Of a stretch of 64,000 nucleotides of DNA, positions 1,033 through 59,414 are shown in pieces. The stretch is from Eucommia ulmoides (taxonomy: Eukaryota; Streptophyta; Magnoliopsida; Garryales; Eucommiaceae): contig CM028327.1 of the NCBI GenBank assembly GCA_016647705.1, forward strand, positions 41,069,017 to 41,133,016, given 5' to 3'. The notes below the pieces were generated by a model. The model was not told the origin of the DNA. It saw nothing but the letters and a program-made list of their open reading frames with translations, and ran no database searches. Both the position numbers and the translations under genes were made by a program. Position 1 is the stretch's first letter; each line of letters starts with the position of its first letter.

Positions 1033-3499
1033 TGTCATACTCTACCCCGGACACTCTTCGCTGTGGGGCCGGCGTGACGTCGACAGGACATCACTTGAAC
1101 GCCAAACCAACTTATAGAACGATAATATATATACAATAATATACAATCGTCTAAATATGCATATACAAATTTTCTACTATGAGGACTCGCTCGTCCCCAA
1201 ATATATGAACAGCAAAATAAATACCATGAACCTCTCACAGGTTCACCCCAGACAGCTCATCTCAAAACCTATACCCGACACCATCGTAGGACTCTATTTA
1301 GTGCCAATAGAGGACTGACTCCTATCTACTTCACCTGCGAGTGTACTGTCTTCTTAGTAAAAATATTTTATAATAATAATTCATATCTAGAATATCTAAA
1401 TGGATCAAGCGTAAGTATATAAACAACACGTAGCTCGTAAAATTCTCCATAATATAAGTAGTAAAAATAAACCAATAAGTATAAGTTTCATTCAAACCCA
1501 TCTAGTATAAAATGATATCAATCATCATAATAAATAATAAATCACTCAATATAAGTAAAACACCACATCTCAAAATACCACTCCACCACAACACACACTG
1601 GCTAGCCATAGTGATCGTTTAACCTCACGATCGGGAGTTGCAACGGTACCGTAACATCCGTAGGAATGCCTTTATATGAAATATCCACACCCCTTTGGGG
1701 GAGAAATATATGATCCACATCCCTTACGGGGAGAAATATCCACATCCCATGGGAAGAAATCCACACCCCTTTCGGGGAGAAATAATCCACACCCTTTACG
1801 GGGGAAAAACTATGGCATCGTCCAAATCAACAATATCGTCAAAATCCACACCCCTTATAGGGAGAATATAAACCATACCCCTTTCGGGGAGAATTTCCAA
1901 AATCATATTTATTCAAACCACACCCCTGACGAGGAGAATTTTCAAACCACACCCTTTTCGGGGAGAATTTCCAAATCATGTTTTTCTTCCTCTTTTTAAA
2001 AGTACCACCCATTTAGTAAAAACCATTTTTCCACCTTTGGTTTTAGAAAACCAAGCATTATTAGAAAATCAGATATTTTTCCACTCTCTTTTAAACCACC
2101 AAAGCCAACGAATCATTTTTCAACTTTCTTTTAAAACCAACATAATTTACCGAAAATTCATTTTTCCCAACTCACCCAAAACATGCTTGATCAATATCAT
2201 TTATAAAATCATACCGTCCAAGTAAAATTATTTTACACACACATTTATATATATAAAAATAGTTTGGTAAGAAGACAATACACTCACCTCGATATCCGTT
2301 TTGCAAAACTGACACTAACCACACTCTATCTGGACGTTGGTGCCTGCGAACCTAATAGTGACAGAGCCTAAATTAATATATTATTTAGAATATCCTAATC
2401 ATGCAATGCAGACCCTATATTCCAAATCGTTACTATTTTATGTACCACGTTATTAAAATTAATTAATCGTTACGAAATTGTTACGATTTCAGGAATTGTA
2501 ATGCTAAATAAAATTTAATTTAACGAAAATTAATAATCGATTGAAATTTCACATTTTTCTGAATTATTTGGCGGCCACGAGATGGGTTTCGGATTTTCCT
2601 AGGGTGGTTTCTGCAAATTCCCCAATTTTTTTTCTTTTTCTTTCTTATTTTCTTCCTCTGTTTGCGCTTACTATTTCTGTTTTGGTTCAAACACTACCGG
2701 CCACCTCCTCTCTCTCTCTACTATTACCGTCCACTAGAGGCCTCCCACGCCTCGCTGCTCTCACCGTCAGCCCTACTCCATCCCCCAGCACGGATCACCA
2801 ACCACCACCGGCCATTCCACCACTAATCGCATCTACCTACTTGACACATACACACCCAACCGTGACGACCCACACACATACCATCGGGCCAAACTCATGC
2901 CGCCACCGCCTCCGTCGTTTACCCCAGCTGATCACACTCCCACACACAGCTGCCCAATCAGAAACAGAACACACACATACACATATCACCGCCACCACCG
3001 CTGACGGAGGAACACCCACACATACGACAATCGCCGCCACTACCGTCGGGTCAACTCACACCACCGCCACCGCCGGAACACCTACACACACAGAGCATAC
3101 CAAACGGAAACAACAAACACACACAACCACAACTCACTCTCTAACTTCCACTTACCGCTGGCTAATCTAACCGACGGCGACACACTCACCGGAACACAGT
3201 TGAACACACATACACACACACTCATGTAGAACACACAGAGAAAAACACACATACATACATGCAGCACATACACACAAACGTAACCCACAACTCACCGCCG
3301 ACAAACCCCTCACGATCATCAACAAAACCCACCGGCGGATTTCTCTCTCTCTCCTCTTCTTGATTCTTCTTCGGTCTTCTTCGCGATTCTTCTCTCATTT
3401 TTCTCTCTATTTAACTATCTATCTATCTATATATATATATAATCAAATAGCCGGATGGACAAGTGGTCGGCCCTCCACCTCTCATTCATTCATCATTTT

Positions 3500-3562
<63 letters not shown>

Positions 3563-3925
3563 TGCTCTTAAGCCCCCTAATTTTTTTAAGTTTCATGTTT
3601 TTATTTTTATATTTTGAAGATTTACACTTTAGTCCCCTAAACTTTTAAATCACATATTTAATTTCAAAATCCGCTTTGCTATTTTAGTTAGGATAATAAT
3701 TTAATCCCATTCTAAATTTTAATGTTTTAAAAAATTGCAATTTATCCTCGTCATGATTTGTTAAGAGTTTAATTAAAATCAACTTCAATTTTAATGTTTT
3801 GAAAATTTACGAATTAACCCCTCACATTCACAATTAAATCATAATTAATACCATCAACCCTGTTATTTTCGAAATATTTTAAATGCAACTTAAATTATAT
3901 GTATATCCAAGGTCGGGGTCTTACA
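1033..3925 (-). mobile_element. LTR A, long gypsy-type solo LTR
   Basis: On the minus strand it runs from TGTAAGACCCC to TATGACA (2,893 bp). A 6-bp repeat cggtgg flanks it exactly (1,027-1,032 and 3,926-3,931). It has the block order shared by long LTRs here: U5 terminal hairpin (1,033-1,080), intron-like segment (1,335-2,287), conserved hairpin block (1,610-1,655), CA/CT-rich leader (2,690-3,350) and TA/CT microsatellites (3,420-3,560). No internal region adjoins it, hence a solo LTR. Tekay/Del chromovirus affiliation is inferred from its length and its similarity to the pol-linked LTRs at 9,746-12,829. Confidence 0.85.
1684..1975. repeat. CCACACCCC...GGGGAGAA tandem module in LTR A
   Basis: About a dozen diverged units of roughly 25 bp with core CCACACCCCTTTCGGGGAGA. 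CCCC and GGGG within the unit form a small hairpin. It sits just inside the conserved block at 1,610-1,655. The same module has three copies at 10,370-10,446 and five at 14,530-14,667. Confidence 0.85.
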
Positions 3926-4438
3926 CGGTGGTCTCTCTCTCAATCATATATATATATGTGTATGTGTGTTACACACACACACACACACATATAAATCAAC
4001 AGGACCTATATATATGTACATTTACGCCAAAAATATATATACATAGGTTTGATTAATATATTAGGTTCGAAAAATGTAGCAGGTATACTTGTATATACAG
4101 ATATATTTAATATGCGAAGAATATAATTTAAGATAAAAATTGTAAATTTTACTAAAACGACAATTTTTAGCATTTCGTTGATTAATAAAAGTTTTAACAA
4201 TCGATCAATGTTTTTCTGTAGAGTACATTATTAACGGAATTTTTTTTTTTGTAGTCGTTGTTATAATAATTTCTGTACAGTTAATATTAACTTAAGAAAT
4301 TAGACGTTAAATAATTTCGTATAATAAAAAAAAAAAAATTGAGAATGGGAAATAGTACATTTTAGGGTCACGCATTATATATTAGATTTATTTTAAATAA
4401 ATTCTTAGTTTAATCTCTTTGGTTATTAGGTTCATAGG
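3926..4438 (+). mobile_element. LTR C1, middle part
   Basis: Continuation of C1 after LTR A. It ends with attaggttcATAGG, matching the place where related LTRs read ATTAGGTTCGCAGGC, and the sequence resumes at 19,045 beyond LTR X. Contains CA/TA microsatellites (3,945-3,995). The last five bases are the TSD of LTR X. Confidence 0.65.
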
Positions 4439-5770
4439 TGGTAGCGCGTAAATACGCCGCTACTTTCACTCGCAAATGTATGAGGTTAAGTTTTGGTATA
4501 AATCGGAAGAGTTACGGTTATCATGTCCACAGGAATTGGTTTTGACTATTATTGAGTATTGCGTTTGTCATGACCTAACTTTATCTAGGCGAAAATAAAT
4601 GTGTTTAAAAATAAAAATACTAATATTAAGTTAATTAATCTAATTAAATTAACTATACTAATACTATTATGAGATGTTTAGGGAAAGTATTACCTAGGGA
4701 TTAACTTTTATTTACAAAAACGTGTTTGGTCTCGTTTTAGTTTACGTTAATGGCGTTCGACTTATTCGACAATCTCAATTCGTAAACTCTCCCGCCACCT
4801 CTCCTGAGTGCAAGACGGGAGAATACGCAACTTCGTGTTAATGAAGAAGTCTCCCTTAACATCTTAACGACCCTAGGTCGTGTGAGTCTCGCCCCAACGT
4901 CATTGATTGCGTACAATCCAACTCCCGATCAGGTTATTGGATCTTCGCGTTGTGTTTACCCTATCGACAATCTCAATTCTAAAACTCCCCCGCTACCTCT
5001 CCCAAGTGTAAGACGGGGGAATACATGACTTCGAGTCAACGAAGAAGTCCCCCTCAATGTCTTAACGACCCTAGGTCACGTGAGTCTTACCCCAACGTCA
5101 TCGATTGTACACAATCCAACTCCCTCACGGGTTATTGGATCGTGGCATTTGTTTATTCTAGTCCAAATCTAGGATTTGTCAAAGCCCGTATTCTCATAAC
5201 ATCTTCTGAGCATGATAAACAAACAATACGACATACACAATCAAAATAACGAAGAACATCTGCAAACGAAACACAAACTTAACAAAATAATATTTTCATA
5301 AATTACATTAATCCCTAAACAAAAACTCGTTTAGCTCATGGCCATAGCTGGTTATACAATGAAAACTAAGCTAAACATACTCAAACAACAATCCTAAGTT
5401 AAGAAATAAAATAAGGAACAAGATAAACTTAGCCTAGTCCGAAAATTTATCGCTAAAAACGTTTCGAGATTGCTCTCCCTTCTTGGCAACGTGATCTTCT
5501 CCTTAGGATTTGAATGAGCACTCTCAAAACCTCTCTCTAAAATATACTATCCCTAATGGAGCTCTCTTGGCTGGAGGTGAGGAGATGAAGGGGTATTTAT
5601 AGGAAAAATATCTAACGAAATATCTAAATCTATGCAGAAGTGACCGCTTAGGCGATGAGTAAGTCAGTTCATTGATCGCCTAGGCGGTGGAGTCGGCGGT
5701 GGCCTTGGTTGACATTCTGCAGTTTCATCGCCGTGGCGGTGGACGTTCAGCAAGATAATGTCACTCTTTG
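4439..5770 (-). mobile_element. LTR X copy 1, promoter-distal part
   Basis: Homologous to the complete copy at 61,154-62,766. Shared features are a minus-strand TATA box CTATAAATACCCC (5,591-5,603), CGCCTAGGCGG motifs at 5,645-5,700 and the ACGACCCTAGGTCGTG block. It is interrupted at 5,771 by a 12.9-kb insertion; its missing first 331 bp lie at 18,709-19,039. Joining the parts gives about 1.66 kb, close to the 1,613 bp of the intact copy. The TSD ATAGG lies at 4,434-4,438 and 19,040-19,044. Confidence 0.85.
4768..5160. repeat. 201-bp tandem duplication inside LTR X
   Basis: Two units starting at 4,768 and 4,969, each beginning CGACAATCTCAATTC and containing CGACCCTAGGTC. The copy at 61,154-62,766 has a single equivalent in the opposite orientation (about 62,215-62,440), so the duplication is specific to this copy. 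Confidence 0.85.
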
Positions 5771-7670
5771 TGTCATATCTCTCCCAGGACATCCATCACC
5801 TAGAGGCTCGGTGGGACGTCGACATGACTTCATCTGAACGTCAAACCATCTAAAAACAAACAAACAAAGGCCATACATAAATATACAACCACAAAATGTC
5901 ACCAGATACATCATCTCTAATTAGGGACACACCATCCCTGAATTATAATAACAACACATAAAAATATAACAACCAAGAATCTCACACAGATTCGCCCTTG
6001 ACAGCTCATCTCAGAAACTCCCGTACGACTCCATCATACGACTCTATCTAGTGTCAGTAGGGGGACCGACTCCTAAATTTGTTCCACCTGCGAGTGTACT
6101 GCCTTCTTAGTAAAAACTATTTTTAACATAATAATAATAATAATACATTCTAAATAATATACATTTAAATGGATCAAGCGTAAATATATAAACACCACAC
6201 AGTTGGTAAAATCTCCAGTATATAAGCAGTGAAAGTAAAACAGTATAAATAAGTTCCATTCAAATCCATCCCTTATCAAATAAGACCAATCACCCTAATC
6301 AATAATAAATCACCCAATATATATAAAACACCACAACTCAAACACACATCTCAATCCCATACCCACAGGCTAAGCCATAGTGATCGTTTTAATCTCACGA
6401 TCGGGAGTTGTAACGGTATCGTAACCATCCGTAGGATATGCCTTCCTAGTGGACCTAATTGCGTAGATGGTACCGGACGTCTCCGAAGGCCATAATATAA
6501 ATCACCACATAATATCTATTACCACTTGCCGGACCACCCTCCGGACAGGACATAATATAAAACACCACCTGCCGGACCACCCTCCAGACAGGACATAAAC
6601 TATGGCATAGTCAACTCAATAATATCATCATCAAATCACAAAACAATATTCTTCTGCTGGACCACCCTCCGGACATACCATAATATAAATCACCACCTTA
6701 TCAATACCGTCAAAAACACCAACGTCCACCTCTTTTTCTCAAAACCAATTTCTAAATCCGAAAATCATATTTTTCACCTTTGTTCGAAAACCGTCTAATT
6801 TCAACGAAACCATTTTTCCCCTTTATTTTTATTTCGAAAAACCAAATATTATTCACTCTCTTTTAAAGCCACCAAAACTAACGAAAATCATTTTTCAACT
6901 TCTTTTTAACACCACCATAGTTTAACGAAAATCCATTTCCCCAACTCACCCAAAACTTGCTTGATCCATATCATTTATAAAGTCATACAGTCCAAGTAAA
7001 ATCATTTACACACACATTTATATATATAAAAATAGTTTGGCAAGAAGACAGTACACTCACTTCGATATCCGTTTTGCAAAACTGCCACTGATTACACTCT
7101 ATCTGGACGTCGGTGCCTGCGCATCTAATAGCGACAGAGCCTAAATTAATATCTTATTTAAAATACCCTAATCATACAATGCAGGCCCTAATTTCCGTAA
7201 TTTTCCTATTCCCTGCATTCTCTATTACTATTCAACAAATATTACTCCGTTACAGTTTACGATATCGAATTTATTCATATAAACAGTCTCAATGTTTATT
7301 ATCGTCATTTCAATATTTTTGACGCTAGAATTTAATTTAATAAATTACACTAAACTTAACGAAAAATGTTATTAAAATTAACTATTACGAAATTATTACG
7401 GTTACAAGAATTGCAACGCTAAATAAAATTTAATTTAATGAGAATTAATAATCAGTTGAAATTTCACCTGTTTCCGGATCGTTTGGTGGCCACGAGATGG
7501 ATTTTGGATTTCCTGGGGTGGTTTCTGTAAATCCCCATTTTCTTTTTCTTTTTTTCTATTTTTTTTTTTTCGGCTGCTCTTTTCTGTTTCGGTTCAGTTG
7601 CCGCCGGCCACCCCCCTTTTACTCTACTATTTCCGTCCACCGAAGGCCTCTCACTCCTCGCCGCTCTTAT
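5771..7670 (-). mobile_element. LTR B1, U5-proximal part
   Basis: Minus-sense end of a long LTR, starting on the + strand with TGTCATATC. Contains the intron-like segment 6,088-7,060, the conserved block 6,379-6,425 and a CCGGACCACCCTCCGGACA tandem module (6,530-6,690). Homology to other LTRs stops near 7,670, where pol-type sequence begins. The U3 start of this LTR is inferred to be 12,216-12,829, displaced by the insertion between. Confidence 0.8.
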
Positions 7671-9745
7671 TTTATGCACCTCTTTTAAGGTCTCGCCTAT
7701 AAATTGACATTATCAACCTTACACATTCTATTTCAAAATCCCCAAACTTCCTCATTCCTTCGGACACGCTAATCAGCTCTACTGTCAAATTCCCACTACA
7801 TTGTCAAACCTTCTTAGCTGGACATTCGACTTTTACATGTCTACACCACGGTAAAAAAAATCAATACCGAACAGCATTACCATCTGATCAACCGCCTACT
7901 AAACTTTCAAGGGCCTTAACTTAACCCACAAGTTATCATGAACCATCAACTTACCCAATTTTTTACCCGAAATATTTGTTATAGTCAGCACCGTGACCAT
8001 CATCATTCTCTTCCACTCTAATCGTTTCCAATTGGACATCTACTTCTGCGCTTCTACCCTACAATCAACAAATATTATCTTCATATTTATAAACTCGATT
8101 AGAGTGGTCATCCGACCCATTGCCTAATAGGCTTACAAAGATCTCAACTTGACACATATATTTGCAAACATTAGGACGAATACGATCTCTACTAGTTCCA
8201 AAAAGTTCCGAATTCCAGTCACATGTTCTCGGCCTTCTCCATATTCCGCCAATCCACCACATCGACTTCCTTTAGATTCACTTGAATGCTATGCCTTAAG
8301 AGCACTAGTCATATTTACTGCACTAGTCACCGTCTTAGTAACACATTCTGGAGATGTTCTACATGCTCTTCTCTACTTTCGACCGGATCACCGTTTTACC
8401 CCGTCACAGCTTCTAATCTTCAATTACAGATACCCTACTCAAAAATCTGATACCCTATTTGTTACAATCGCTTTAACAACCTATCCACCCTCACTTTTTC
8501 GTTACCAACACCGGATCTTTATGGGAACGCACACCAGGTCTACCTAAATCATTAGTTGATATTCTAACTTATTGTGACGACTTCTTCTTCTATTAAAACT
8601 TCCTAAATAGCAAGCAAACTTACTCCGATTCCCAATATTCAACAATAAATTTTATTTATTTATTTATTATATATATATATATTTTTTTTTTTTATTATTA
8701 TTATTATTTTATTCATCACCCCCCAAGCTATTCGAATTCCACTAAATGCAATCAATCATCGACTCAAATTATTCCACTCAATTCTTCCTATCCCATAGCA
8801 ATCACTTTTAAAGTCTCAAGATTATAATTTCAAATCTCAGTTTCCCACATTCATTAACACCAGTATACTTAACCAACTTAGGTGCCGATCGTTCACCTCC
8901 TTATCATTATAGAACCTTTTTAACCGCAATCACAATTACTAATTACGCTTACAAGCACCCTGTCCTACATAGGGAAAATCCCTAGCTATTACCATATCCA
9001 CTGCCGAAATTGTATGAACAACATCTGCGTACTAACCTGTGATATCCTTCCTTTAATACTTTGCTAACCTCCTAAACCCATTATCCAACTAATTGGGGTA
9101 CTAGATATGCCTTTCCAACATTACATACCTTTAGTTATCCCAAATTGACTTCACCTGCAACTCTACATTACTCATTCCAATGGATTATATCTACACGCAC
9201 CTACTATCCTCCTAGATCCACAATCCCCGGCTACTTCTTATATATCATTTCCTATTACCTTACTACATGCCACAACTGTTATTTCGTCTATTAATCAATC
9301 TAAAATAAAAGTGCTACCAAATTAAATTCTTGTCCAGTGACGTCACAGTTCCCTTCCAGATTACCTAGAAAGGGATTTACTCCTTTTGAATATTATTTCC
9401 TATTCCAACTTAAGTGTGTTATGCCATATCATCTAGTATATTGATAACGACGTCATTTGTTGTTTGTTCAACTTAGCCCTCTTATCTTAGGGAAGACATC
9501 CCTCTTAGCAATAACATCGCGTGGTTATATCGTTGCTTGCCCAAAAAGACAACCCTCTACGCACCATGCTAATGCACCACTTAAAAAAAAAACCTAACAC
9601 CCGTATACCAAGCTCACCTATTAACATCCTATCTCATGCCCCCTACTGACCTGACGACTGGCACGTCCTCCTACCTCATGATCTTCTACCGACATATCTC
9701 CTGACAAATCTACAGAACCTATAACCTAGGCTCTGATACCAAAAT
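7671..9745 (-). pseudogene. decayed gypsy gag-pol fragment with PBS
   Basis: On the minus strand, immediately inside LTR D1, the primer-binding site TGGTATCAGAGC (9,730-9,741) matches the initiator-Met tRNA type. A gag-like start follows (about 9,600-9,700, many stops). Around 8,340-8,390 the minus strand reads ESREEHVEHLQNVL, the reverse-transcriptase stretch after the YxDD region. Near 8,190-8,240 it reads VTGIRNFLELVEIVF, matching the VTEIRSFLGLAGYYRRF segment usual in gypsy pol. Only about 2 kb remain of an expected 4-5 kb, with frameshifts and stops, so it is dead. No 3' LTR follows it on the left. Confidence 0.7.
9730..9741 (-). promoter_or_regulatory. tRNA-iMet-type primer-binding site
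   Basis: The minus strand reads TGGTATCAGAGC four bases past the end of LTR D1. This is the usual minus-strand priming site of plant Ty3/gypsy and Ty1/copia elements. It fixes the orientation of the long LTRs in this window. Confidence 0.9.
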
Positions 9746-11229
9746 TGTCACAACCCGTCCCGGACACCCGTCATCCCGAGGCGGGCGTGATTACAACATG
9801 ACATCACCAATACCCAAATTGACAAATGAATGACAATATACACCTACTGTATAATACAAACACCTACTACGGGGGACACACCCGTCCCAAATTGTTTTAT
9901 TAACTAAAAGTATTTATCCATGAACTTTTTGTAGGTTCGCCTTTGACAGTTTCTCTCAATCGCCTATACGACTTCATCACGTAGCTCTACTTAGTGCCAG
10001 TAGGGGACCAACTCCTAGCTGTTGTACCTGCGAGTGTATTGCTTTCTTAGTAAAACATTTTTTAAAATATTAATACGTTCTAAATATTTCCACAATTTAG
10101 TATGAATCAAGCATAAGTATCTAAGCAATGAAAATAAAGCGATATAGATAAGTTTCATACAAATCCATCTAGTACAAAATCCTACCAAACATCATAATGA
10201 ATAATATCACATCAACCAATATACGTAAAACGCCATATCTCAAGCACCAATCTCAAACATACACCACCAACACACACACACTGGCCAGCCTTAGTGATCG
10301 TTTTAACCTCACGATTGAGAGTTACAACGGTACCGTAACATTCACAGGAATGCCTTCCTACGAAATATCCACACCCCTTTTTGGGGAGAAATATAATCCA
10401 CACCCCTTACGGGGAGAAATATAATCCACACCCCTTTCGGGGAGAACAGCCATGGCATCGTCAAAATCAAATACAGTATCCTCGAATCTCAACTCAATAA
10501 ATATCACCTACTCAAAATTGTCAAATCACCACGTCTACCACTTTTCTCAAAACCAGCTTTTAAATTCAAAAATCATATTTCATATCTTCTTTTAAAGAAA
10601 GCGTCCAATTTTATCAAAACCACTTTTTCACCATTTATTTTTATTTAGAAAACCAAACATTTTTAGAAAAATAGATGTTTCCTATTCTCTTTTTTAAAAA
10701 CACCGTCTAATTTCACCGAATCCAGCGGAAATTCATTTTCAGCTTTCTTTTGAAAACTATCGAAATTCAGTTTACCAACTCATTCAAATCCTGCTTAATC
10801 CTTATCATTTATAAATTCATACAGTTTAAATAATCACATATTTCATCATATATATACATAGAAAAATAGTTTGGCAAGAAGACAATACACTCACCTCGAT
10901 ATCCGTTTTGCAAAACTGACACCGATCGCACCTTATCTGGATGTCAGTGTCTATGAACCTAATAGTGACAGATTATAAATTAATATCTTATCTAAAACAT
11001 CCTAATCATGCAATGCGGATCCTATATTCCGAATCGTTACTAATTCTATGTACCACGTACTTAAAATTAATTAATCGTTACGAAATTATTATGATTTTAG
11101 GATTTGTAACACTAACTGAAATTTAATTTAACGAGAATTAATAATCGATTGAAGTTTCACCTACTTCCGAAACGTTTGGCGATCACGTGATCGATTTTTG
11201 ATTTCCCTGGGGTGGTTTCTGCAAATTCC

Positions 11230-11263
<34 letters not shown>

Positions 11264-12215
11264 CCTTCTTCTTCCCCGTTTCCTGTTTCTGCCTCCCGTC
11301 CTCATTTTCTGTTCTGGGTGTCCACCGTCCAGCCACACACCACACGTCGGCAAGGCCGTATCCACCTACGTACGCCGTCACAGGTAGCCGACGGCCGACG
11401 GCCGAACCGAACAGAGTACCCACGACGGATGAACGACGCACTGCCGGTGAACAGAACGCACCTGCATACTCCGGCTGAACGATGGGCTAAACGACAGACA
11501 AAACACGTGCATTCCCGACGATCGGACAGCCCACGCACACACGCGATCGTCGACGATCGGAACGGCACACCCACGTGAAACACACACACACACACACACA
11601 CCCGTTCGATCATATACATACTGAAGAATTCACATATATCCACTACTGCAGCAACCCACACCACCGACCCGAACGGCGATAGCCCCTCCGGAGACGATCG
11701 GAGCACCGGCCGGACCCTCTCTCTCTCTCTTTAGATTTTTCTCTCACTTTCCGAATGGATTCCCGACCCTCGATCACGAGTTTCCTAATCCTCTCACATG
11801 CATGATTCTAGTGGGTTAGTTTACTCCCAACGTGCCACGTCGTTTTTTCTCTCCAACTCTCTGCCAGCCAGCTACTCATCCGACCGCCGGTTGACGTGTG
11901 GGTATAGGATAGTTTTTTTATTTTTTTTTATTTTGTTAAATGCTCTTTCCTCACCCCAGCTTCCCTGCAACCTTGATTTAATCTTTTTCAATTTTTTAAA
12001 AGTTTGTAAGATTTTCAATTTTACCCCCTGAAAGTTTCATTTACAAGCTGAATGTCAATTTCCTCTCTAAATTGGGATTTATTGTTTCTTACATTTTCAA
12101 TTTGACCCCTAGACTTCCTATTTGAATTTTTAATTATCCTAATTTCACCCCAAATTTTCACAATTACTCTAAAATACCACTGAAATAACTTACATGGTAC
12201 AATTGAGGTCTTACA
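9746..12215 (-). mobile_element. LTR D1 (5' LTR of a truncated gypsy element)
   Basis: Minus strand runs from TGTAAGACCTC to GGTTGTGACA (2,470 bp), with a PBS directly beyond. Contains the intron-like segment 10,028-10,894, the conserved block 10,293-10,340, CACACCCC units 10,370-10,446, a long poly-T tract at 11,233-11,263 and a (CA)n at 11,581-11,600. Closely similar to the solo LTR at 13,920-16,495. It lies inside LTR B: 12,216-12,829 continues B. Confidence 0.88.
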
Positions 12216-13919: not shown

Positions 13920-15471
13920 TGTCACAACCCGTCCCGGACTCCCATCATCCCGAGGCGGGCGTGACTACAGCATGACATCACCAAAAACCAAACAACCTAA
14001 TAAATATGACAATATACACCCACTGTATAATACAAACACTTATTATGGGGGCGCACCCGGCCCGAAGTTTTTTCTAACTAAAAGTATTTATTCCTAAACC
14101 CTCTTAGATTCGCCTCTGACAGCTTCTCTTAATCATCCACAAGACCCCATCACATAGCTCTACCTAGTGCTAGTAGGGGACCAACTCCTAGCCGTTGTAC
14201 CTGCGAGTGTACTGCCTTCTTAGTAAAACATTTCGAAAATGTTAATACTTTCTAAATATTTTCACAATCTAGTATGGATCAAGCATAAGTATATAAGTAA
14301 TGACAATAAAGCAATATAGATAAGTTCCATCTAGTATAAAATCCTACCAATCATCATAATAAATAATATCAAATCAACCAATATATGTGAAACACCACAT
14401 CCTAAGCACCAATCTCAAACACACACCTCCAACACACACACACACTGGCCAGTCCTAGTGATCATTTTAACCTCACGATCGGGAGTTGCAACGGTACCGT
14501 AACATTCATAGGAATGCCTTCCTACGAAATATCCACACCCCTTTTTGGGGAGAAATACAATCCACACCCCTTACGAGGAGAAATATAATCCACACCCCTT
14601 TCGGGGAGAAATATAATCCACACCCTTTTCGGGGAGAAATATAATCCACACCCCTTTCGGGGAGAACAGCCATGACATCGTCAAAATCAAATACAATATC
14701 ATCGAATCGCAACTCAATAAATATCACTTACTCAAAATCGTCAAATCACCACGTCTGCCACTTTTCTCAAACCAGCTTTTAAATTCAAAAATCATATTTT
14801 ATATCTTCTTTTAAAGAAAACGTCCGATTTTATCAATACCACTTTTCCACTATTTATTTTTTATTTTTAGAAAACCAGGCATTTTTAGAAAAATAGATGT
14901 TTCCTATTCTCTTTTTAAAAACGCCGTCTAATTTTACCGAATCCAGCGGAAATTCATTTTCAGCTCCTTTTCGAAAACTATCGAAATTCAGTTTACCACC
15001 TTATTCAAATCGTGCTTGATCCATATCATTTATAAATTCATACAGTTTAAATATTCACATATTTCATCATATATATTAGTAGAAAAATATTTTGGCAAGA
15101 AGACAGTACACTCACCTCAATATCCGTTTGCAAAACTGACACTGACCGCACTTTATCTGGACGCTAGTGCCTCCGAACCTAATAGTGGCAGATTCTAAAT
15201 TAATATCTTATCGAAAATATCCTAATCATGCAATGCGGACCCTATATTCCGAATCGTTACTAATTTTATGTACTACACACTTACAATTAATTAATCGTCA
15301 TGAAATTATTATGATTTTAGGATTTGTAACACTAAATAAAATTTAATTTAACGAGAATTAATAATCGATTGGAGTTTCACCTATTTTCGAAACGTTTGGC
15401 GACCATGAGATGAGTTTTGGATTCTACTGGGGTGGTTTCTGCAATTCTCCCCCCCCCTTTTTTTTTCCTTT

Positions 15472-15506
<35 letters not shown>

Positions 15507-16495
15507 CTTCCTCATTTCCTATTTTTGCTTCCCGGTTTTGTTCACCGTTTGCTGCTTTGGGGTGCCCACCGGCCTGCCACGCACCATCCGTCGGCAAGGC
15601 GGTACCCACCGACGCATATCGTCACAGGCAGCTGACGGCCCACGGCCGTCCACCCGTACATCCACCGACTAACCGAACCGACGAACGCCCTCCGCCGATC
15701 TCTCTCTCTCACCAACTCCGGCCACCCTACTAAATATACACATCCACATACACACAAACACGTTTAAAAATACTCACGCACACCGACAATAACTCAAAAC
15801 AGAGCACGCACGCACGGCCGAACATATTACCGAACACTTACTGGACGACCGGCGACGATCACCCACCACCTGAGCCGAACCACCCTCTCTGTCCCTCCTG
15901 AAAATTGACAACGGCACACCACGAAGCTCCCCGTCGACCACCGAATACCCACGCACACCCACAACCCTGAAACCGGAACACCCTGCCTTTGCCGGAGAAC
16001 CCTCCGATCTTCTCTCTCTCTCTAGATTTCCTCTCTTCTCCTCCTCCGGTTTGCGGTTCCTGTTCCGAGAATTGTTTCTTCGTGATCATTACATCCATAG
16101 GTCGGTATTTATATGCATGTAGCTAGTGGATTAAGCGGTCACCTCCTCCTGCCACGTCGTCGTCCATGCTCTGCTCCGGTCGGTGGCTCTGATCACGTAA
16201 ATATATATTTTGTGTGAAATTACCCTTTCCTCACCTTAACTTCTTAAAAACTTCATTTTAGTTTAGGTCCACTTTTAAGATTTTTTCCTTAAATTGCAGT
16301 TGCACCCCTAAAAGTTTTAAGTTTAAGTTAAATGTCAATTTACCTTTCTAAATTGGGATTTACTGCTTCCATATCTTCAATTTGACCCCTAGACTTTTTA
16401 TTTGAATTTTTAATTGTCCCAATTCCACCCCGAATTTTCACAATTACTCTAAAATACCACTGAGATGACGCACATGCTATAATTGAGGTCTTACA
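13920..16495 (-). mobile_element. LTR D2, solo LTR inside an integrase pseudogene
   Basis: Complete 2,576-bp LTR (minus strand TGTAAGACCTC to GGTTGTGACA) with a perfect 5-bp TSD ATTAA at 13,915-13,919 and 16,496-16,500. Contains the intron-like segment 14,201-15,115, the conserved block 14,455-14,503 and five CACACCCC units. The integrase reading frame continues across it, so this is a precise insertion followed by LTR-LTR recombination. Confidence 0.95.
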
Positions 16496-16885: not shown

Positions 16886-16902
16886 AAAAAAAAAAAAAAA
16901 AC

Positions 16903-18292
16903 GGGGGATTTACAAAAACCACCCCAGGAAATCCAAAATCTATCTCATGGCCACCAAACGATTCGGAAACAGGTGAAATTTCAACTGATTATTAATTCTC
17001 GTTAAATTAAATTTTATTTAGCGTTGCAATTCTTGTAACCGTAATAATTTCGTAATGGTTAATTTTAATAACGTTTTTCGTTAAGTTTAGTGTAATTTAT
17101 TAAATTAAATTCTAGCGTAAAAAATATTGAAATGGCGATAATAAACATAGAGACCGTTCACATGAATAAATTCGATATCGTAAACTGTAACGGAGTAATA
17201 TTTATTGAATAGTAATATAGAATGCAGGGAATAGGAAAATTATGAAAATTAGGGCTTGCATTGTATGATTAGAGTATTTTAAATAAGATATTAATTTAGG
17301 CTCTGTCGCTATTAGATGTGCAGGCACCGGCGTCCAGATAGAGTGTAATCAGTGGCAGTTTTGCAAAACGGATATCGAGGTGAGTGTATTTTCTTCTTGC
17401 CAAACTATTTATATATATATAAATATGTGTGTAAATGGTTTTACTTGGACTGTATAATTTTATAAATGATATGGATCACGCAGGTTTTGGGTGAGTTGAG
17501 GAAATAGATTTTCGTTAAACTATGGTGGTGTTAAAAAGAAGTTGAAAAATGATTTTCGTTGGTTTTGGTGGCTTTAAAAGAAAGTGGATAATATTTGGTT
17601 TTTCGAAATAAAAATAAAGGGGAAAAATGGTTTCGTTGAAATTAGATGGTTTCAAACAAAGGTGAAAAATATAATTTTCGGATTTAAAAATTAGTTTTGA
17701 GAAAAAGAGGTGGACGTTGGTGTTTTTGACGGTATTGATGAGGTAGTGATTTATATTATGGTCTGTCCGAAGAGTGGTCCGGCAGATGGATATTGTTTTG
17801 TGATTTGATGATGATATTATTGAGTTGACTATACCATAATTTATGTCATGTCCGGAGGGTGGTCCGGCAGATGGTGTTTTATATTATGTCCTGTCCGGAG
17901 GGTGGTCCGGCAGGTGGTGATAGATATTATGTGGTGATTTATATTATGGCCTCCGGAGACGTCCGGTACCATCTACGCAGTTAGGTCCACTAGGAAGACA
18001 TATCCAACGGATGGTTATGATACCGTTACAACTCCCGATCGTGAGGTTAAAACGATCACTATGGCTTAGCCGGTGGGTATGGGATTGAGATGTGTGTTTG
18101 AGTTGTGGTGTTTTATATATATTGGGTGATTTATTATTAATTAAGGTGATTGGTCTTATTTGATATTGGATGGATTTGAATGGAACTTATTTATACTATT
18201 TTACTTTCATTGCTTATATACTGGAGATTTTACCAACTATGTGGTGTTTATATATTTACGCTTGATCCATTTAAATGTGTGTTATTTAGAAT

Positions 18293-18350
<58 letters not shown>

Positions 18351-18708
18351 GTAAAAAATGGTTTTTACTAAGAAGGCAGTACACTCGCAGGTGGAACAAA
18401 TTTAGGAGTCGGTCCCCCTACTGGCACTAGATAGAGTCGTATGATGGAGTCGTATGGGAGTTTCTGAGATGAGCTGTCAGGGGCGAATCTGTGTGAGATT
18501 CTTGGTTGTTATATTTTTATGTGTTGTTATTATAATTCAGGGATGGATGTGTCCCTAATTAGAGAGGATGTATCTGGTGACATTTCGTGATTGTATATTT
18601 ATATATGGCCTTTGTTTTTTTTTTTTTAGATGGTTTGACGTTCGGATGAAGTCATGTCAACGTCCCACTGAGCCTCTAGGTGATGGGTGTCCTGGGTGGG
18701 GTGTGACA
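16903..18708 (+). mobile_element. LTR B2, truncated, inverted relative to B1
   Basis: Near reverse complement of 5,771-7,540, ending on the + strand with GGGGTGTGACA at 18,708. Contains the intron-like segment 17,380-18,390, the conserved block 18,021-18,060, CCGGAGGGTGGTCCGGCAG units and a (TTA)n at 18,295-18,352. Its U3 half is missing. The following bases CTCTG match CTTTG before B1 at four of five positions. Confidence 0.88.
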
Positions 18709-19039
18709 CTCTGCATTCTGACGGCCTAAGCGGTGGTTTCACCGCCTAGGCAGTGAAACTGCAGTGAGTTTAGGCTTGGCTCTGTACTTTGACCGCCGCG
18801 ACGGTGGTTTGGTCGTCGCAGCGGTGGCTACAGGTTCTGAATTTCAGCTTCTTTGCCCTTTTCCACCGTTCTTCCACCGTCTTTGATTTGATGTGATTAT
18901 TTTTTATCCGTTTTCATCCCGTTTCACCTCAAACACCTGATTTATACAAAAACACATAAAAATATATTAAAACGTACTAAACATATTCAAAAACTAACAA
19001 TGTTTGGATTGAAAATAAATATGTAATTTACACCTATCA
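18709..19039 (-). mobile_element. LTR X copy 1, first 331 bp
   Basis: Minus strand starts TGATAGGTGTAAA at 19,039, the same start as the complete copy at 61,154. Carries CGCCTAGGC-type motifs (18,720-18,850) that join in register with those at 5,645-5,765 once the 12.9-kb block is removed. Followed by the TSD ATAGG. Confidence 0.88.
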
Positions 19040-29895: not shown

Positions 29896-29932
<37 letters not shown>

Positions 29933-30190
29933 TTATTTTTTAATTAATTTATTTATTTACACAAATATCCCCTTAAGAAAATAAAAATATTAATTATATT
30001 CCAAAATTCTTAAAATTATATTTTAAATAATACATTAGTCCCAAAACTTCTAAAATCAATTTAAAATAAACATTTAACTCCCAAAAAAATATCAAATTTT
30101 ATTTATACCATAAATTTACAAAACAATTCAAAAATATCAAACTTATATAAAATAATATTTTTCAAAAATATAGATTTTCGGGGTATTACA
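29250..30190 (-). mobile_element. right arm: 926-bp LTR on the minus strand
   Basis: Minus strand runs from TGTAATACCCC (30,190) to GAGCCATTACA (29,265). Its first 255 bp are the inverted partner of 22,779-23,037. Its U5 end (29,265-29,300) resembles that of the LTR at 58,364. Contains a 198-bp intron-like segment (29,534-29,731) whose ends GTAGAATTTC and GAAATTCTAC are perfect inverted repeats. An (ATT)n lies at 29,886-29,924. Confidence 0.75.
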
Positions 30191-48451: not shown

Positions 48452-51400
48452 ATGAATCTGGGAGCTCCAACAGTGAAATCCATGGCGATGGCAAGCTCAA
48501 GTGCTTCTTGGAAGTCCGGCGACGGCGTTTCCGACCAGTTCCCGGTGGGTCTCCGTGTACTGGTTGTGGATGATGACCCTACTTGTCTCATGATCTTAGA
48601 AAAGATGCTTCAGAACTGCCGATATGAAGGTAAGAAATCATCTCAATATAAACTCCTCCGTTCATCTTGCTTCAATTGACGAAAATCGAAGTCAAAATTA
48701 CTCGAATTCGTCTGTTTGATTGGGATATAAGGAGAAACCCTACTTAGATTTACGTAAATTTTCAAATTCTGTGAACTTCAATCTTCGATTTCTGTTCAGA
48801 TCCGAACTTGGATTGTGATCAGAATCGTGGAATTGTTCGATTAGAGCCTTAAAATTACGCAAAATTGTTGATCTGATTTAGTAATTGGAGTCGTGAATCG
48901 GTTCTCCTTTTCAAGTAGAATCATAGATTTGATTTTGTTATTACAGTGATGTGATTTTTGGGTATTGATTTGAATCCTTTTTTTTTTTTTTTTTTTTTTT
49001 TTTGAAGTTACGAAATGCAATCGAGCCGAAATGGCGTTATCGCTGTTAAGAGGGAACAAAAATGGGTTTGATATTGTTATTAGCGATGTTCATATGCCGG
49101 ACATGGATGGTTTCAAGCTCCTTGAACACGTAGGGATTGAGATGGATCTTCCAGTTATCAGTAAGAAGAAGAACCCCTCTCTCTCTCTCTCTCTCTCTCT
49201 CTAAATCAGTTGGTTTTGATTCATTGAATGGCTTCTGTTTTGTGTTTCTGTTCCCAGAAAACTTGGAACATAAATAGAGATTTGGCCACAATCCTGTTGA
49301 AATTTTGCTGAATTGATTTGTTTTTTGTTACTATTTAGGCCCTGTTTGTTTAGTGTTCCTGGGTTTCTGTTTTTGGTTCCAAGTTTTTTCGAAAACACAA
49401 AGCTAAATTTTCGGATCAGAAACACTAAACAAACGCCACCTAAGGCCCCTTTTTTCGATTTCGATATTGGGTTTTACTCTGTTCCCAGATTTTCAGAACA
49501 AATTTCTGAAAGTAGAAGAAAATTGTTCCCAGATGGCTTTTTATGTTCCACGTTTTCTTTGAACAAAAGAGACTAAACAAACGCCACCTAAGGCCCCGGT
49601 TGTTTTGTGTTTCTATTCTCAAATTTCCGTATCTGTTTTGGTTCTATTCCCAGTTTTCCCAAAAAAAATTCTGAGAACCAAAAAAAAAAAAAAAAAAAGT
49701 TCCCAAATTTCTGTCTGTTCCGGGAAAAAATTATACTAGAGAAGCAACACCTAAATACCCATTTTCCCCCATATTTGTATTATGGGTTGATTGCCTTTTA
49801 CCCCCTTATACTTTGATCTCGTTTCATTTTGCCCCCCTCTACTTTAAAAACTTACACTTTACCCCGAAAACTATCTTTTTTTTGGCTTATATGTTAAAAA
49901 TGGGTGAAATTAAACTTTCTATCTAAATTTTACATGAAATGAATAAAATTATTATTTCTTTTAATTTATTTTGTCTTTATTTAAAAAAAAAAGAAAGAAT
50001 AGAGAGAGAGAAAATGTTAGTTTATTCTTTTATTACCTTTAAATATTAAATTTAAATTTAAAAATACCGAGAAATTAAGTCATTTTACATTGTTTTTGAA
50101 TAAATTGTGAGTTTCTTCCTTTAGTCAAAAGTACTAAAGTAGAAGAGGGTGCGTGTTGCATAGGTTTTCAATGTGGGAGGGTTAAAATGAAACAAGACCA
50201 AAGCACGAGGGGCTAGTAGGCAATTTTGTTCTAGGAACAGAACTAATCTGTTCCAAGATTTCAATTATTTTTGTTATGATTTCACATTTTGATCTTGATA
50301 ATTTTATTTTTTTTTAACCTTTTATTTTAGTGATGTCGGCGGACGATAGTAAGAACGTGGTGATGAAGGGAGTAATTCACGGCGCTTATGATTACCTAAT
50401 AAAACCGGTCCGTATTGAGGCGTTGAAGAACATATGGCAACACGTGGTGAGAAAGCGTAAAAATGAGTTTGAGCAAACGGGGAGCGTGGAGGATGTGGAA
50501 AGACAAAAATACCCTCCCGAGGAAGCCGATTATTCGTCTTCGGCAAACGAGGGGAATTGGAAGAACTCAAAGAGGAGGAAAGAAGAGGAAGACGAAACCG
50601 AGGATAGGGATGATTCCTCTAGCTTGAAGAAACCGAGGGTAGTTTGGTCAGTTGAGCTTCATCAGCAGTTCGTGGCGGCTGTTAATCAGCTCGGAATTGA
50701 CAGTACGTACATCTATGACCCCCGCCCCAGCCCCCCTCTTTCATTTCTGCACCAAACGAGGACTTAAACAATGTTGTTTTCTTTGTATGCTTGTTTGATT
50801 CAGAGGCTGTCCCTAAGAAAATTCTTGAGCTGATGAGTGTACCCGGGCTCACCAGAGAAAATGTCGCCAGCCATCTTCAGGTGTGGCCCAGCCCGAACAT
50901 ATTTTTCATGATGCCATTTTTTGGACCAGGAAAGAATTGTTGCCAGATTTCGGTTTCTGTTCCAAATTTTCAGGGAACAGAAACTGAAGTTTGGGAACGG
51001 AAAAACTAAATAAATTATATGGTTAATCACACTTTGTCCCCTGTGGTTTGAGCGAATTTGGTTTTATACCCCATGATATTTTCTTCATCACTTATCCCCT
51101 GTGATTCAGATAAGTGCAATTGTTAAATAATTACATAATTGTGTAAAATGATAAATTTACTCTTATATCTGACCCGGGAAGAAAAGGTTGACAATTGGAT
51201 ATTATTTCACCCTTGGACTGGGAGATATAAATGTCAATTAATATTAAATAATTTATTTATTTTAACATTGCGAAGTTTAACCGTTAATTTGATGGAAAAT
51301 GTAATCATTACGATTCAGTTTAAACCACATGAGCAAGTGATACCGGAGTAAGGAATAAGTGATGATGAAAATACTTCGGGGTGTAACGTGCAATTCGGTC

Positions 51401-53048
51401 AAACCAAAAGGGCGGAAAAGTGTAATTAATACTGAATTATAAACAAAATTGTTAGGATTTATTTTTTTATTTCACACACACACAAATATATATGCTGCAG
51501 AAATATCGGCTATATCTAAGAAGGCTAAGCGGAGTTCCTCAGCATCAGAACGGGCTCAACAACTCTTTCATGGGCCCGCAAGATTCGACCTTTGGATCAA
51601 TGCCTTCCTTAAACGGGCTCGACCTTCAAGCCCTAGCCGCCACGGGCCAGATCCCGGCCCAAAGCCTTGCTTCGCTCCAAGCCTCGGCCCTTGCTAGGCC
51701 CGGACAGAAATCTTCCATTTCCATGCCCATCGTTGATCAAAGAAACCTCTTTAGCTTCGAAACTCCGAAGCTAAGGTTTGGAGAAGGACAACAAGAAGTC
51801 CATAACAACAACAACAACGTTAAGCCAATGAATTTACTCCAGGGAATACCGACGAATTTGGGCCCGAATTTAAGCTCATCGGGCCAATCTTTCGGGCCCA
51901 TGAATATACAAGTTAATAATCCGCAGGCTACCCATAATAGCTCGGTGCTTGTTCAAATGGGCAGTCAAGTTTCGAGACAACCCATTTTGGCTAGCTCGAT
52001 CGGGAGTGGAATTTTGGGCCGAAACGGGCTTGTCGAGAATACAAGAGGCCCGGTTTACAATACGGCCCCTCAACCCTCTTCAATGGTAGATTTCAGCATT
52101 AACCCGAATGTGGATTTGCCCGGAAATAGTTTTCCTCTCGGGGGCAATTTGGGAATATCAAGTCTCGTGTCCAAAGGGCCAGTTATTCAGGAGGAATTCA
52201 ACTCTGAATTGAAAGGATTAACGGGATTTGCACCAAGTTACGATATTTTTAACGATTTAAATCATCATAAACCGTCGGATTGGGCTTTACCGAACATTGG
52301 GTTGTCGCAATCAGGCCTACTTCAAATGGGCTCTTCCTCCGGCCCAAATATTAGTTCACAGCTTAACGGGCTTTCCGGTGAAAAATTGGCTAGGGTTAAG
52401 CCTGAAATAGTCTCCGACATGGGCTTTCAGAATAACCTATATGTGGAGCAGTATGGTCAGGATGATCTCATGAGTGCTCTTCTTAAGCAGGTTAGTAGTG
52501 CCTTTTTTTTTTAAGGGGCTGTTTAGTTGCAATCTGAAAACAGTTTTATCTCGATGATGTTTGGAGTGGAAAACATTGTTTGAAAACTGTAAAGCGGTTT
52601 TCGTAGTTGTAAACCAAACAAGCCCTAGGATCCAAACAAGCCCTAGGATTTCGATTACGTGTTTGCATGATTTCCTTTAGGTAGCTTTTGGAAATGGGGA
52701 ATTGGAGGGTTGAAATTGGAATTAGAAATGAACGCGTGCAAAGATTTAGAAATTTAAATACGTTTATTTTTAATCCCAATTCCGTGCAACCAAACACTAC
52801 CGGAAGTAAAACTGGAGCCAATCTCTCCTCTTGATGCTTATAGTTGGGGTTGCAATCTCAGAACAGTTCTCTTTTATACAGGGTTTAGGGTTGAGGGTTT
52901 TAAGACTGTGGGCTTGTAAACCAAACAAGCCCTTAACTAACTCGATTCAATCGTCTTTTGTTTTTTTTTGCATCAGCAAGAAGGCGGGCCCCCCGTTGAA
53001 AACGAGTTTGGATTCGATGGCTATCCGTTGGATAATCTCCCGGTTTAG
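48452..53048 (+). CDS. ARR2-like: type-B cytokinin response regulator (ARR1/ARR2 clade)
   Basis: Exons 48,452-48,629, 49,008-49,160, 50,331-50,702, 50,804-50,880, 51,501-52,490 and 52,977-53,048 sum to 1,842 nt, 613 residues. The receiver domain (about residues 30-150) has the acidic pair in [10 protein letters not shown], the phospho-acceptor Asp in [11 protein letters not shown] and the Lys in DYLIKPVR. It is followed by an acidic/basic linker with KRRKEEE and a GARP (Myb-like) DNA-binding domain from [20 protein letters not shown] to [20 protein letters not shown] Gln/Asn/Ser-rich activation region and the conserved C-terminal end [15 protein letters not shown] plus [13 protein letters not shown] complete it. 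Type-B regulators are nuclear transcription factors phosphorylated on the Asp through His-Asp relay from cytokinin receptors. The 77-bp exon 4 inside the GARP domain is typical. All junctions are GT-AG and keep frame. Length is slightly shorter than ARR1/ARR2. Confidence 0.96.
49335..49760. mobile_element. cluster of head-to-tail MITEs in response-regulator intron 2
   Basis: Three consecutive units start GGCCCTGTTTGTTTAGTG, GGCCCCTTTTTTCG and GGCCCCGGTTGTTTTGTG, and end in AACACTAAACAAACGCCACC, GACTAAACAAACGCCACC or GAAGCAACACC, with CTAA at the joints. Interiors carry the TTTCTGTTCC text also seen at 24,500-24,680 and 28,230-28,420. Confidence 0.7.
49789..50225. mobile_element. MITE with about 45-bp TIRs in response-regulator intron 2
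   Basis: The left end ATTGCCTTTTACCCCC then CTTTGATCTCGTTTCATTTT is the inverted match of the right end AAAATGAAACAAGACCAAAG then TAGTAGGCAAT. The interior is AT-rich. TSD not resolved. Confidence 0.75.
51023..51429. mobile_element. MITE in response-regulator intron 4
   Basis: Terminal inverted repeats TAATCACACTTTGTCCCC/CTGTGGTTTGAGCGAATT on the left and GTGCAATTCGGTCAAACCA/AAAGTGTAATTA on the right. CACTTT(G)CCCCCTGTGGTTT ends are common to plant Mutator-type MITEs; class inferred. Confidence 0.7.
52512..52628. mobile_element. MITE in response-regulator intron 5
   Basis: AAGGGGCTGTTTAGTTGCAA on the left and TTGTAAACCAAACAAGCCCT on the right are imperfect inverted repeats. Further AAACCAAACAAGCCCT text recurs at 52,632 and 52,916, suggesting neighbouring remnants. 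Confidence 0.65.
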
Positions 53049-57820: not shown

Positions 57821-57822
57821 AA

Positions 57823-58085
57823 AAAAACCAACGTTTAATTTGGATTTTATATATCTCCCTCTACAAACCAATCAAAATTCTATAAACCAAATGTATTAAA
57901 ATAAAAAATACAACAATTTCCATTATGATAATGACTTGTATATTCAACAAAAAAAAAAAAAAAAAACCAACGTTTAATTTGGATTTTATATATCTCCCTC
58001 CAATCAAAATTCTATAAACCAAATGTATTAAAATAAAAAATACAACAATTTCCATTATGTTAATGACTTGTATATTCAACAACAA
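57823..58085. repeat. 131-bp tandem duplication
   Basis: Two nearly identical units (57,823-57,949 and 57,958-58,085), each starting in an A-run then ACCAACGTTTAATTTGGATT and ending TTGTATATTCAACAA. The first unit has seven extra bases (TACAAAC). Recent event judging from identity. Confidence 0.9.
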
Positions 58086-58363
58086 ATAGGTCAAGAAGCC
58101 TCATTCATCATTAGACATGCTTATGATTGCAACGTCTTCTCTATTTTTATCTTTATTTTTCATTTTTATAAATTTATTTACTTTATTTGGTTGACATAAG
58201 CATACATAAAAAATTAAAAATTAAAGTCATGAAAAAACATTGCAAAAAATGAATGAGGTTTAATTTTTTGAATAAGTTAATTGAAGGTTCAATTTTACAC
58301 TATACTTTCAAAATATGTCCAATTAATTTTTAGATTCAATTCGTAATTCTTTATTATTATTTT
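58086..58363. other. unassigned AT-rich spacer
   Basis: No gene or repeat unit recognised. Confidence 0.4.
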
Positions 58364-59414
58364 TGTGACGATCTAGTTTCTCAAGATCGTCACACGATTT
58401 TTTCCTTTTTATTTTTACTGAGAAGTACAGGTAAAAGACAAACCACTCAACCACCAAGCTTTCGCCGCGCTACTATGATAAAAATAATAACATATGTGAC
58501 ATTAACTTGATATTATCCAACCAGAATAATACTTACAAAACTGATTAAAATTTTAATATTATAAATTTAAAATTCCGAGATTACACATATACCAAGATAT
58601 TCCCTAGCAAAACTACAAATTCCTAACCATTCCTAATTAACACCTGTCCTGACAGCTCAATAAATAAAATGACACCACCCTTTGACTCTATCTAACGCCA
58701 GTAGTGGATTTGTCTCTACTTGAAGTATCTAAGATAAAATATTTTATCAGTGTACTATCTTCATAATATAAAAATAATTTATGGATCAAGTACATTTATC
58801 AAAACCATTTTTCAAAACAGAATATAATATTCGTGATATTTTCCAAAACAAAATATAACCACATTGACCAGTATCAAAATTCATAGATATCATCAAAATA
58901 TAACAATTGAATATAAAGCAACCAATCAAATCATTTTTGTATAATAAAATATTAAAAACATACTTTCCTACTAATCATAGGATCATTTCACCTCACGAAC
59001 AAGAGTTATAACAGTATCGTAACTTGTACAACTTTGTAATATAAGCCATTCAATATCTCCAATGGTAGGAGCCAACACATGGTATAAACCACCATACCAT
59101 GATGATAATCATCATCGTCACAACAACAACAACAACTACCTGCAAGACTTGCCCTCCTGTCAGGTTACAATACGACGTCCTACAAGATATACCCTCCTAT
59201 TATGACCAGCAACATCCCGCAAGACATGCCCTCTTGTCGAGATCACACTATAGTATATAGGTATAATAATAAAAACTACTTTCCATATTTAAAAGTTTAC
59301 TTGATTTGCATAACGTTATAAAATCGTCCATTTTAATAATTTTTTTCATAATTTAGTACGAAAATATAATTTGACAATTTACTCAGAAGACAGTATACTC
59401 ACCTTGATAAGAGA
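58364..59414 (-). mobile_element. LTR C2, truncated
   Basis: Reverse complement of most of 19,080-20,080, with the conserved block (58,978-59,024), the CTGCAAGAC/CCTCCTGT module (59,140-59,240) and intron-like segment 58,729-59,402. It begins with a perfect inverted repeat TGTGACGATCT...AGATCGTCACA (11-bp arms, 9-nt loop; 58,364-58,394). Cut off at about 59,414, where a Tat-like LTR starts. Confidence 0.8.

Follow-up and report, generated by a model that had tools for sequence, protein, structure and literature searches.

Two spliced introns within the long terminal repeats of a Ty3/gypsy retrotransposon family of Eucommia ulmoides, one of them with complementary ends

The long terminal repeats (LTRs) of a retrotransposon family in Eucommia ulmoides carry two introns, and both were removed at exact splice junctions from RNA that was later reverse transcribed. 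The family was examined starting from a 64,000-nucleotide stretch of contig CM028327.1 (positions 41,069,017 to 41,133,016; assembly GCA_016647705.1), here called the window, in which six segments beginning at 1335, 6088, 10028, 14201, 17380, and 32790 belong to one Ty3/gypsy LTR family (family 1). Each of these segments is intron 2, which is about 0.3 to 1.0 kb long and whose 5′-terminal 19 nt are able to form a stem with the 19 nt immediately preceding the closing AG. Upstream of it lies intron 1, a GT..AG intron of 201 to 203 nt in most copies measured, which was missed by the original prediction made from the letters of the window. That the family 1 segment is a real intron is, in our judgment, close to certain. 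Searches covered one genome of 947 Mb, and all counts given here are from genomic DNA.

Evidence for splicing comes from genomic copies in which the introns are precisely absent. A junction pattern for intron 2 matched seven sites genome-wide, and a reversed-pattern control matched none. All seven read exon 1 joined to exon 2 at the predicted bases, and all seven also lack intron 1. These sites are on contigs C15 (L065), C1 (a pair in L069, one of which is also in L066), C14 (L067 and L068), C4 (L070), and C8 (L071). The two C1 sites are the paired LTRs of a single element and are 89.6% alike; the 5′ one is followed by a primer-binding site (PBS) with one mismatch. In the C1 pair and in L071, the donor side of the intron-1 junction resembles that of intron-bearing LTRs, and in L065 the intron-1 join lies 8 nt farther downstream at the following AG, the outcome expected from an alternative acceptor. 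L067, L068, and L070 have an exon 0 that ends in a different type of sequence, and their donor base is provisional. The closest intron-bearing relatives among the fetched loci differ between these copies: the C1 element was most like L008 and L002, L065 was most like L023, and L067 and L068 were most like copies in the window, including that at 1335; L070 and L071 fall outside this comparison. An initial junction pattern tied to one type of exon 1 had matched no sites genome-wide, and a looser pattern matched 98, of which four were taken as candidates by eye and most others were unspliced acceptors. These counts rest on short patterns in which exact ends were the only ends searched for, and the copies fetched were the first listed places of each pattern search.

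Loss of intron 1 alone is also recorded in the genome. In intron-bearing relatives this intron reads ..TTCGGAAACAG/GTGAAACTTCAATCG ... CACTATTAG/GTTCGCAGG (slashes mark splice sites), and the corresponding junction pattern matched 57 genome sites, including eight same-strand pairs about 5.5 to 8 kb apart, with no match for the control. Twenty of the 57 sites were fetched, none of them from the C1 pair, in which both introns are missing. Nineteen of the 20 keep intron 2 with both of its arms, and the remaining one (L079) is broken off after the start of exon 1; the length of exon 1 was 63 to 64 nt in 19 measurable copies without intron 1. On a tree of exon 2 with 62 rows, the seven fully spliced rows need four changes, at least three of them forced by well-supported branches, and a single intron-free ancestor of the seven is incompatible with this tree. 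Sixteen of the 19 copies lacking intron 1 and keeping intron 2 were entered, and these 16 rows need 10 changes, at least seven of them forced, a looser figure in which the rows scored as intron bearing were not each checked for intron 1. Recombination between LTRs could shift intron state, and the changes on the tree are not strict event counts. The exact junctions left by the absence of both introns mean that spliced RNA was reverse transcribed. Two of the intron-free copies, L067 (C14:58166151) and L068 (C14:58210517), are 44 kb apart, have a common exon 0, and differ by about 10% in exon 2; this intron-free lineage may have transposed again.

Most sampled copies of family 1 have not lost either intron. 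The seven sites without intron 2 compare with 7,465 unspliced donor sites, counted with a similar pattern of unequal reach. In a sample of 39 copies (33 from donor-selected loci and 6 from the window), the intron-1 acceptor was upstream of exon 1 in 31, the body of the intron alone was present in 1, and 7 were unresolved. Most sampled copies thus retain both introns, which implies that most of the RNA that transposed had kept both. Retention of intron 1 by most copies speaks against its removal being the rule in RNA that transposes.

The second feature of the family is the pairing of the ends of intron 2, which are near-invariant (AG/GTGAGTGTACTGTCTTCTT ... AAGAAGGCAGTACACTCGCAG/GT) and follow the consensus AG/GTGAGT at the donor and CAG/GT at the acceptor. 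The stem spans donor positions +1 to +19 and stops 2 nt from the intron end, with TACTAAG at its inner end. The original prediction listed nine segments with GT..AG borders in sense orientation and paired ends, and both statements were borne out: GT opens and AG closes every one of the nine, and ViennaRNA minimum-energy folds of whole segments (198 to 1,011 nt) joined the two end regions in nine of nine. The arm letters quoted for nine LTR copies fit six of them, the family 1 copies; the segments at 58729 and 19104 belong to a related subfamily (family 2) and that at 29534 to an unrelated LTR (family 3). The described 19 pairs including two G-U wobbles are found at 1335, 6088, and 14201, and the six copies together range from 17 to 19 of 19 positions paired with two or three wobbles. 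The branch-like motif placed near the acceptor, TTACTAAG, begins 26 nt before the intron end in six of six family 1 window copies; family 2 has no TACTAAG.

Comparison with controls separates these ends from the rest of the intron. The terminal duplex had a mean energy of −30.7 kcal/mol (range, −36.6 to −20.4) in 57 copies (including 19104 of family 2, which a loose match had caught), and interior windows of the same introns had a mean of −6.6 kcal/mol (standard deviation, 2.9). Intron 1 is an internal control, as a spliced intron of the same LTR without a stem; its ends are unpaired, at −4.0 kcal/mol versus −6.8 kcal/mol in its interior (n = 13). Among copies that were not selected by their donor arm, the arms paired at 18.35 of 19 positions on average (n = 17) and at 5.2 to 10 when slid by 1 to 4, and GT was present in 17 of 19; AG was present in 56 of 59 copies. 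Across 38 copies, positions from donor 0 to about +32 and from acceptor −27 to −1 were mostly 0.8 to 0.99 identical, compared with about 0.46 to 0.56 in the interior of intron 2, 0.68 in the last 50 nt of exon 1, and 0.75 in the first 50 nt of exon 2, with the qualification that 28 of the underlying loci were chosen by a perfect donor arm and only the acceptor arm is unbiased. Pairing across families, arm conservation, and whole-segment folds support the stem, and the strength of the finding is in repeated, family-wide ends rather than in the window alone. An RNA stem that forms and matters is, on this evidence, probable. Rfam gave no match in the 64-kb window at gathering scores, either to a group I or II intron or to any other curated RNA family, and upstream ATGs in intron 2 showed no marked enrichment (mean of 25.6, versus 21.5 expected from composition).

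Family 1 is very abundant. Its 19-nt donor arm occurs in the genome at 20,504 sites (10,211 + 10,293) when two or fewer mismatches are allowed, compared with 16 (8 + 8) for the same pattern read backwards. Reading around perfect donor arms at 28 loci, all on contig C1 as the first places listed, recovered the acceptor arm and LTR exon 2 at 28 of 28 (28 of some 20,500 sites). In L009, L010, and L011 the segment is present in both LTRs of one element, and the LTR ends in GTGACA(A), followed in the 5′ copy by TTGGTATCAGAGCC. The introns are located in both LTRs, not between gag-pro and the reverse transcriptase. Separate open pieces of the internal region matched the Pfam domains zf-CCHC, RVP_2, RVT_1, and RT_RNaseH in L010 and SH3_Tf2-1 in L011; four of the nine internal-region open pieces searched had no Pfam match, and no chromodomain match was found among the pieces searched. 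On the basis of domains, LTR pairs, and an initiator-methionine-type PBS, family 1 is a chromovirus-like Ty3/gypsy family, and by resemblance it may be Tekay-like. The PBS lies 284 to 320 nt after the intron-2 acceptor in 7 of 30 copies, which puts the segment upstream of the PBS. The original prediction had set it between promoter and PBS; the second border is supported in these copies, and neither the promoter nor the transcription start was located. Of 30 copies, 26 showed no TATA-like motif in the 700 nt preceding the intron-1 donor, whose place was estimated in 17 of the 30.

The window copy with the fullest annotation is on the minus strand in an LTR at about 9746 to 11404. It consists of intron 1 (10959 to 11160; 202 nt; donor AG/GTGAAACTTC, acceptor TATTAG/G), whose exact absence is seen in L066/L069 and at the 57 junction sites, followed by a 64-nt exon 1 (10895 to 10958), intron 2 (10028 to 10894; 18 of 19 positions paired), and exon 2 to the LTR end (9746 to 10027; ..TTGTGACA). 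Behind it, at 9729 to 9741 on the same strand, is the sequence TGGTATCAGAGCC, which we take to be a PBS of the initiator tRNA-Met type. Four other minus-strand copies of intron 2 are at 1335 to 2287 (19 of 19 paired, with a duplex of −32.4 kcal/mol), 6088 to 7060 (19 of 19; LTR at about 5770 to 7554), 14201 to 15115 (19 of 19; LTR at about 13920 to 15648), and 32790 to 33570 (diverged or decayed, 17 of 19; −23.8 kcal/mol), and one is on the plus strand at 17380 to 18390 (18 of 19; LTR at about 16886 to 18709). From sequence, intron 1 was placed on the minus strand at 15179 to 15380 (202 nt) in the 14201 LTR and at 7125 to 7467 (343 nt, GT..AG) in the 6088 LTR; the latter assignment is backed by exact loss in other LTRs, and 343 nt is one of the intron-1 lengths measured. 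Short repeats with units like ATTTCTCCCCGAAAGGGGTGTGG and GGAGGGTGGTCCGGCAG occur in intron 2 at 10375 to 10445, 14540 to 14660, and 6500 to 6680 (minus strand). They differ in copy number and may account for part of the length variation.

Two further LTR families in the window have segments with paired ends. Family 2, related to family 1, is represented by intron-like segments at 19104 to 19798 (plus strand; arm ending about 16 nt before the AG) and 58729 to 59402 (minus strand), and its 3′ arm ends about 16 to 21 nt before the AG. In 16 fetched copies it has a core of about 13 bp plus a second helix of other letters, with a mean of −16.9 kcal/mol versus −9.5 in the interior. Likeness of the 58729 copy to 19104 starts about 6 nt before the donor, and positions 59403 to 60000 are unlike exon 1 of 19104 or of the fetched relatives; a break in similarity so near the splice donor is unexplained. 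Family 3 is an unrelated LTR (about 29267 to 30190) with unrelated arm letters (GTAGAATTTCTAACTCTT and AGAGGGGTTGAAATTCTAC). The acceptor predicted at 29534 is doubtful; the likely one is 33 nt further on, reading ..TTGCAG/GGCCG in relatives and GCAAG here, which gives a segment of 29501 to 29731 on the minus strand. Up to 28 pairs join its ends in 20 fetched copies (mean of −24.2 kcal/mol; interior, −7.3). In all three families, the donor region pairs with sequence that precedes the 3′ splice site. Within L023, positions 5642 to 7705 are a family 3 LTR in which the 3′ arm and acceptor region occur twice and which is followed by a decayed initiator-methionine-type PBS; behind this PBS are three frames of at least 60 amino acids in which nothing was recognized by eye. 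A similar block (..GRTACCGTYRYAACTCCCGATCGTG..ACGAT..) was seen by eye in family 1 and family 2 introns, at about 6375 to 6430 (minus strand) and 19525 to 19570 (plus strand); it could form a small hairpin and is a candidate signal inside the intron.

A model that would join these observations is one in which the terminal stem restrains splicing of intron 2. Transposition would mainly use unspliced RNA, with the stem masking the donor of intron 2 and, for family 1, its acceptor region as well. Masked in this way, intron 2 would be removed slowly, RNA retaining it would persist as a template, and spliced RNA would serve mainly as mRNA. In favor of such a brake, intron 2 has by eye the stronger donor (GTGAGT, compared with GTGAAA in intron 1), yet it was lost at 7 sites versus 57 for intron 1, a difference that is not strictly comparable because the two junction patterns have unequal reach. 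We hold the whole model tentatively, with slightly more doubt than trust, and its broadest form is doubtful: that an intron 2 folded end to end delays its own removal, so that one transcript gives rise to a short-leader mRNA and an intron-bearing genome, and that at least one other LTR family of this genome evolved the same device with unrelated letters.

Several results weigh against this interpretation. The stemless intron 1 is also kept by most copies, so retention needs no stem, and our confidence in the model was slightly lowered for that reason. The 57 intron-1 junction sites include expanded lineages and LTR pairs. For the paired ends themselves, one control is unfavorable: a blind scan of the window for 16-nt stems recovered five of the nine segments together with five others, with GT..AG outside the 20 commonest boundary classes. 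The covariation suggested as a check was absent at the level of single copies: one-sided changes in the arms keep a pair in 32 cases and break one in 27 (35 and 31 when a family 2 copy is included), which is about chance, since about 55% of possible transitions would keep a pair. There were three two-sided changes, and pairing is kept in two of them (C14-G to T-A in L072 and C10-G to T-A in the window copy at 10894). As single copies are dead, uncorrelated arm changes neither support nor refute the stem. The family 2 stem mostly leaves out the acceptor and the first bases of the donor. The intron reading itself is secured in family 1 and close kin by exact spliced-out copies and did not extend to the others: a family 2 junction pattern found no spliced copies genome-wide, and for family 3 a junction at TGAG/CG gave none and one at GCAG/GG gave six matches, all unspliced acceptors. 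Junction patterns allow three mismatches for these old copies, which makes absence there weak evidence.

Genomic copies alone cannot separate a brake from two other roles for the stem. It might instead be a bridge that brings the donor and acceptor of a long intron together and promotes splicing, as would suit the lack of a clear pyrimidine tract before the AG in family 1, a stem ending 2 nt from the intron end with TACTAAG at its inner end, and the free likely acceptor in families 2 and 3. Burial of the donor from +1 by about −30 kcal/mol and retention of intron 2 in 19 of 20 fetched copies lacking intron 1 do not fit this well; a bridge is possible but doubtful, and on the narrower question of brake rather than bridge we are evenly divided. 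Alternatively, intron 2 could be kept for a packaging or replication signal, with the stem as part of that signal or a mere mark of its ends. Retroviruses offer a logic in which a signal sits within an intron, and copies with intron 2 vastly outnumber copies without it, but elements lacking intron 2 have transposed, as the two LTRs of L069 and the related intron-free copies L067 and L068 indicate. This too is conceivable, though we rather doubt it.

Other explanations concern the nature and place of the segments. Introns in the unique 3′ (U3) region would be spliced from the 3′ end of the RNA rather than from a leader, and loss from both LTRs of one element fits U3 and R/U5 alike; the lack of a TATA-like motif upstream of the intron-1 donor also agrees with this arrangement. 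It is nevertheless unlikely, given that the acceptor-to-PBS distance (in seven copies) leaves little room for a promoter and R and that splicing would remove much of the promoter. Quite improbable is an origin of the arms as terminal inverted repeats, with a DNA transposon or introner having landed in the LTR and left the pairing as a functionless relic. The complementarity does begin at the first base of the segment, and the AG..AG flanks could equally be intron ends or a 2-bp target-site duplication, but all 28 donor-arm loci (of some 20,500) were in an LTR with exon 2 and none at unrelated sites, an unrelated LTR family has paired ends of other letters, and both arms have stayed much more alike among copies than the interior has. 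Deletions in LTRs are common, and the gaps could in principle be ordinary genomic deletions; against seven exact junctions each also without intron 1, several origins on the exon-2 tree, and 57 exact intron-1 junctions with a control of zero, this explanation can be all but set aside, on searches aimed at exact ends.

Elsewhere in the window, an open frame at 50318 to 50764 (plus strand) matches Arabidopsis-type ARR1 chains in the PDB (E value, 1.8e-42), a response regulator. The frame at 51456 to 52511 (plus strand) looks by position and composition like a later exon of the ARR1-like gene and had no Pfam match, and five other window frames searched against Pfam had none.

Splice sites in LTRs have precedents, as HTLV and foamy viruses among the retroviruses carry a splice donor in R. 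In plants, LTR elements generally lack introns according to a 2025 review, with exceptions including Ogre and EVADE (PMC12786077). Ogre, of the Tat lineage, is like family 1 a plant Ty3/gypsy element with an intron, which lies between gag-pro and the reverse transcriptase and is spliced from a subset of transcripts (PMC6317226). The Ogre intron is thus internal and affects the polyprotein, in contrast to two introns in the LTR, one with paired ends. EVADE undergoes subgenomic splicing (PMC12786077), and barley BARE1 has separate RNA pools for translation and replication, in which spliced RNA must stay out of replication (PMC3735527); in both, unlike family 1, the introns are in the coding region (PMC3735527, PMC12786077). 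BARE solves the choice between mRNA and genome with two promoters, and DNA copies of its spliced RNA could not be amplified, whereas spliced copies of family 1 are found in the genome (PMC3735527). In Caenorhabditis elegans, Cer1 bypasses consensus splice sites to make full-length RNA (PMC3315495). A stem that hides a donor has a precedent in human immunodeficiency virus type 1, where splicing is repressed by a leader hairpin that shields the major 5′ splice site from U1 (PMC4974535); that hairpin is local to the donor, and in family 1 the partner is the acceptor region 0.3 to 1 kb away, inside the LTR. Intermediate introns of euglenids likewise combine canonical borders with stable structure, but they are in protist nuclear genes rather than retroelements, and the authors of that work question whether they form a type of their own (PMC4770533). 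Symmetrical stwintrons of Hypoxylon and fungal introner-like elements share spliceosomal introns with terminal inverted repeats and differ in proliferating to new gene positions, whereas the family 1 intron multiplies with its element (PMC8469720). No report of both splice sites, or of two introns, within an LTR was found in a literature search that left most subscription journals outside its reach.

Introns internal to the LTR, in a family of some 20,000 donor sites, would alter how such LTRs are annotated. The elements are also a genomic fossil record of splicing, with 7 junction sites for intron 2 and 57 for intron 1, and the intron-2 stem lends itself to mutation and scoring. The question of how a single retroelement RNA can act both as mRNA and as genome may, in this family, have its answer in an intron of the LTR.

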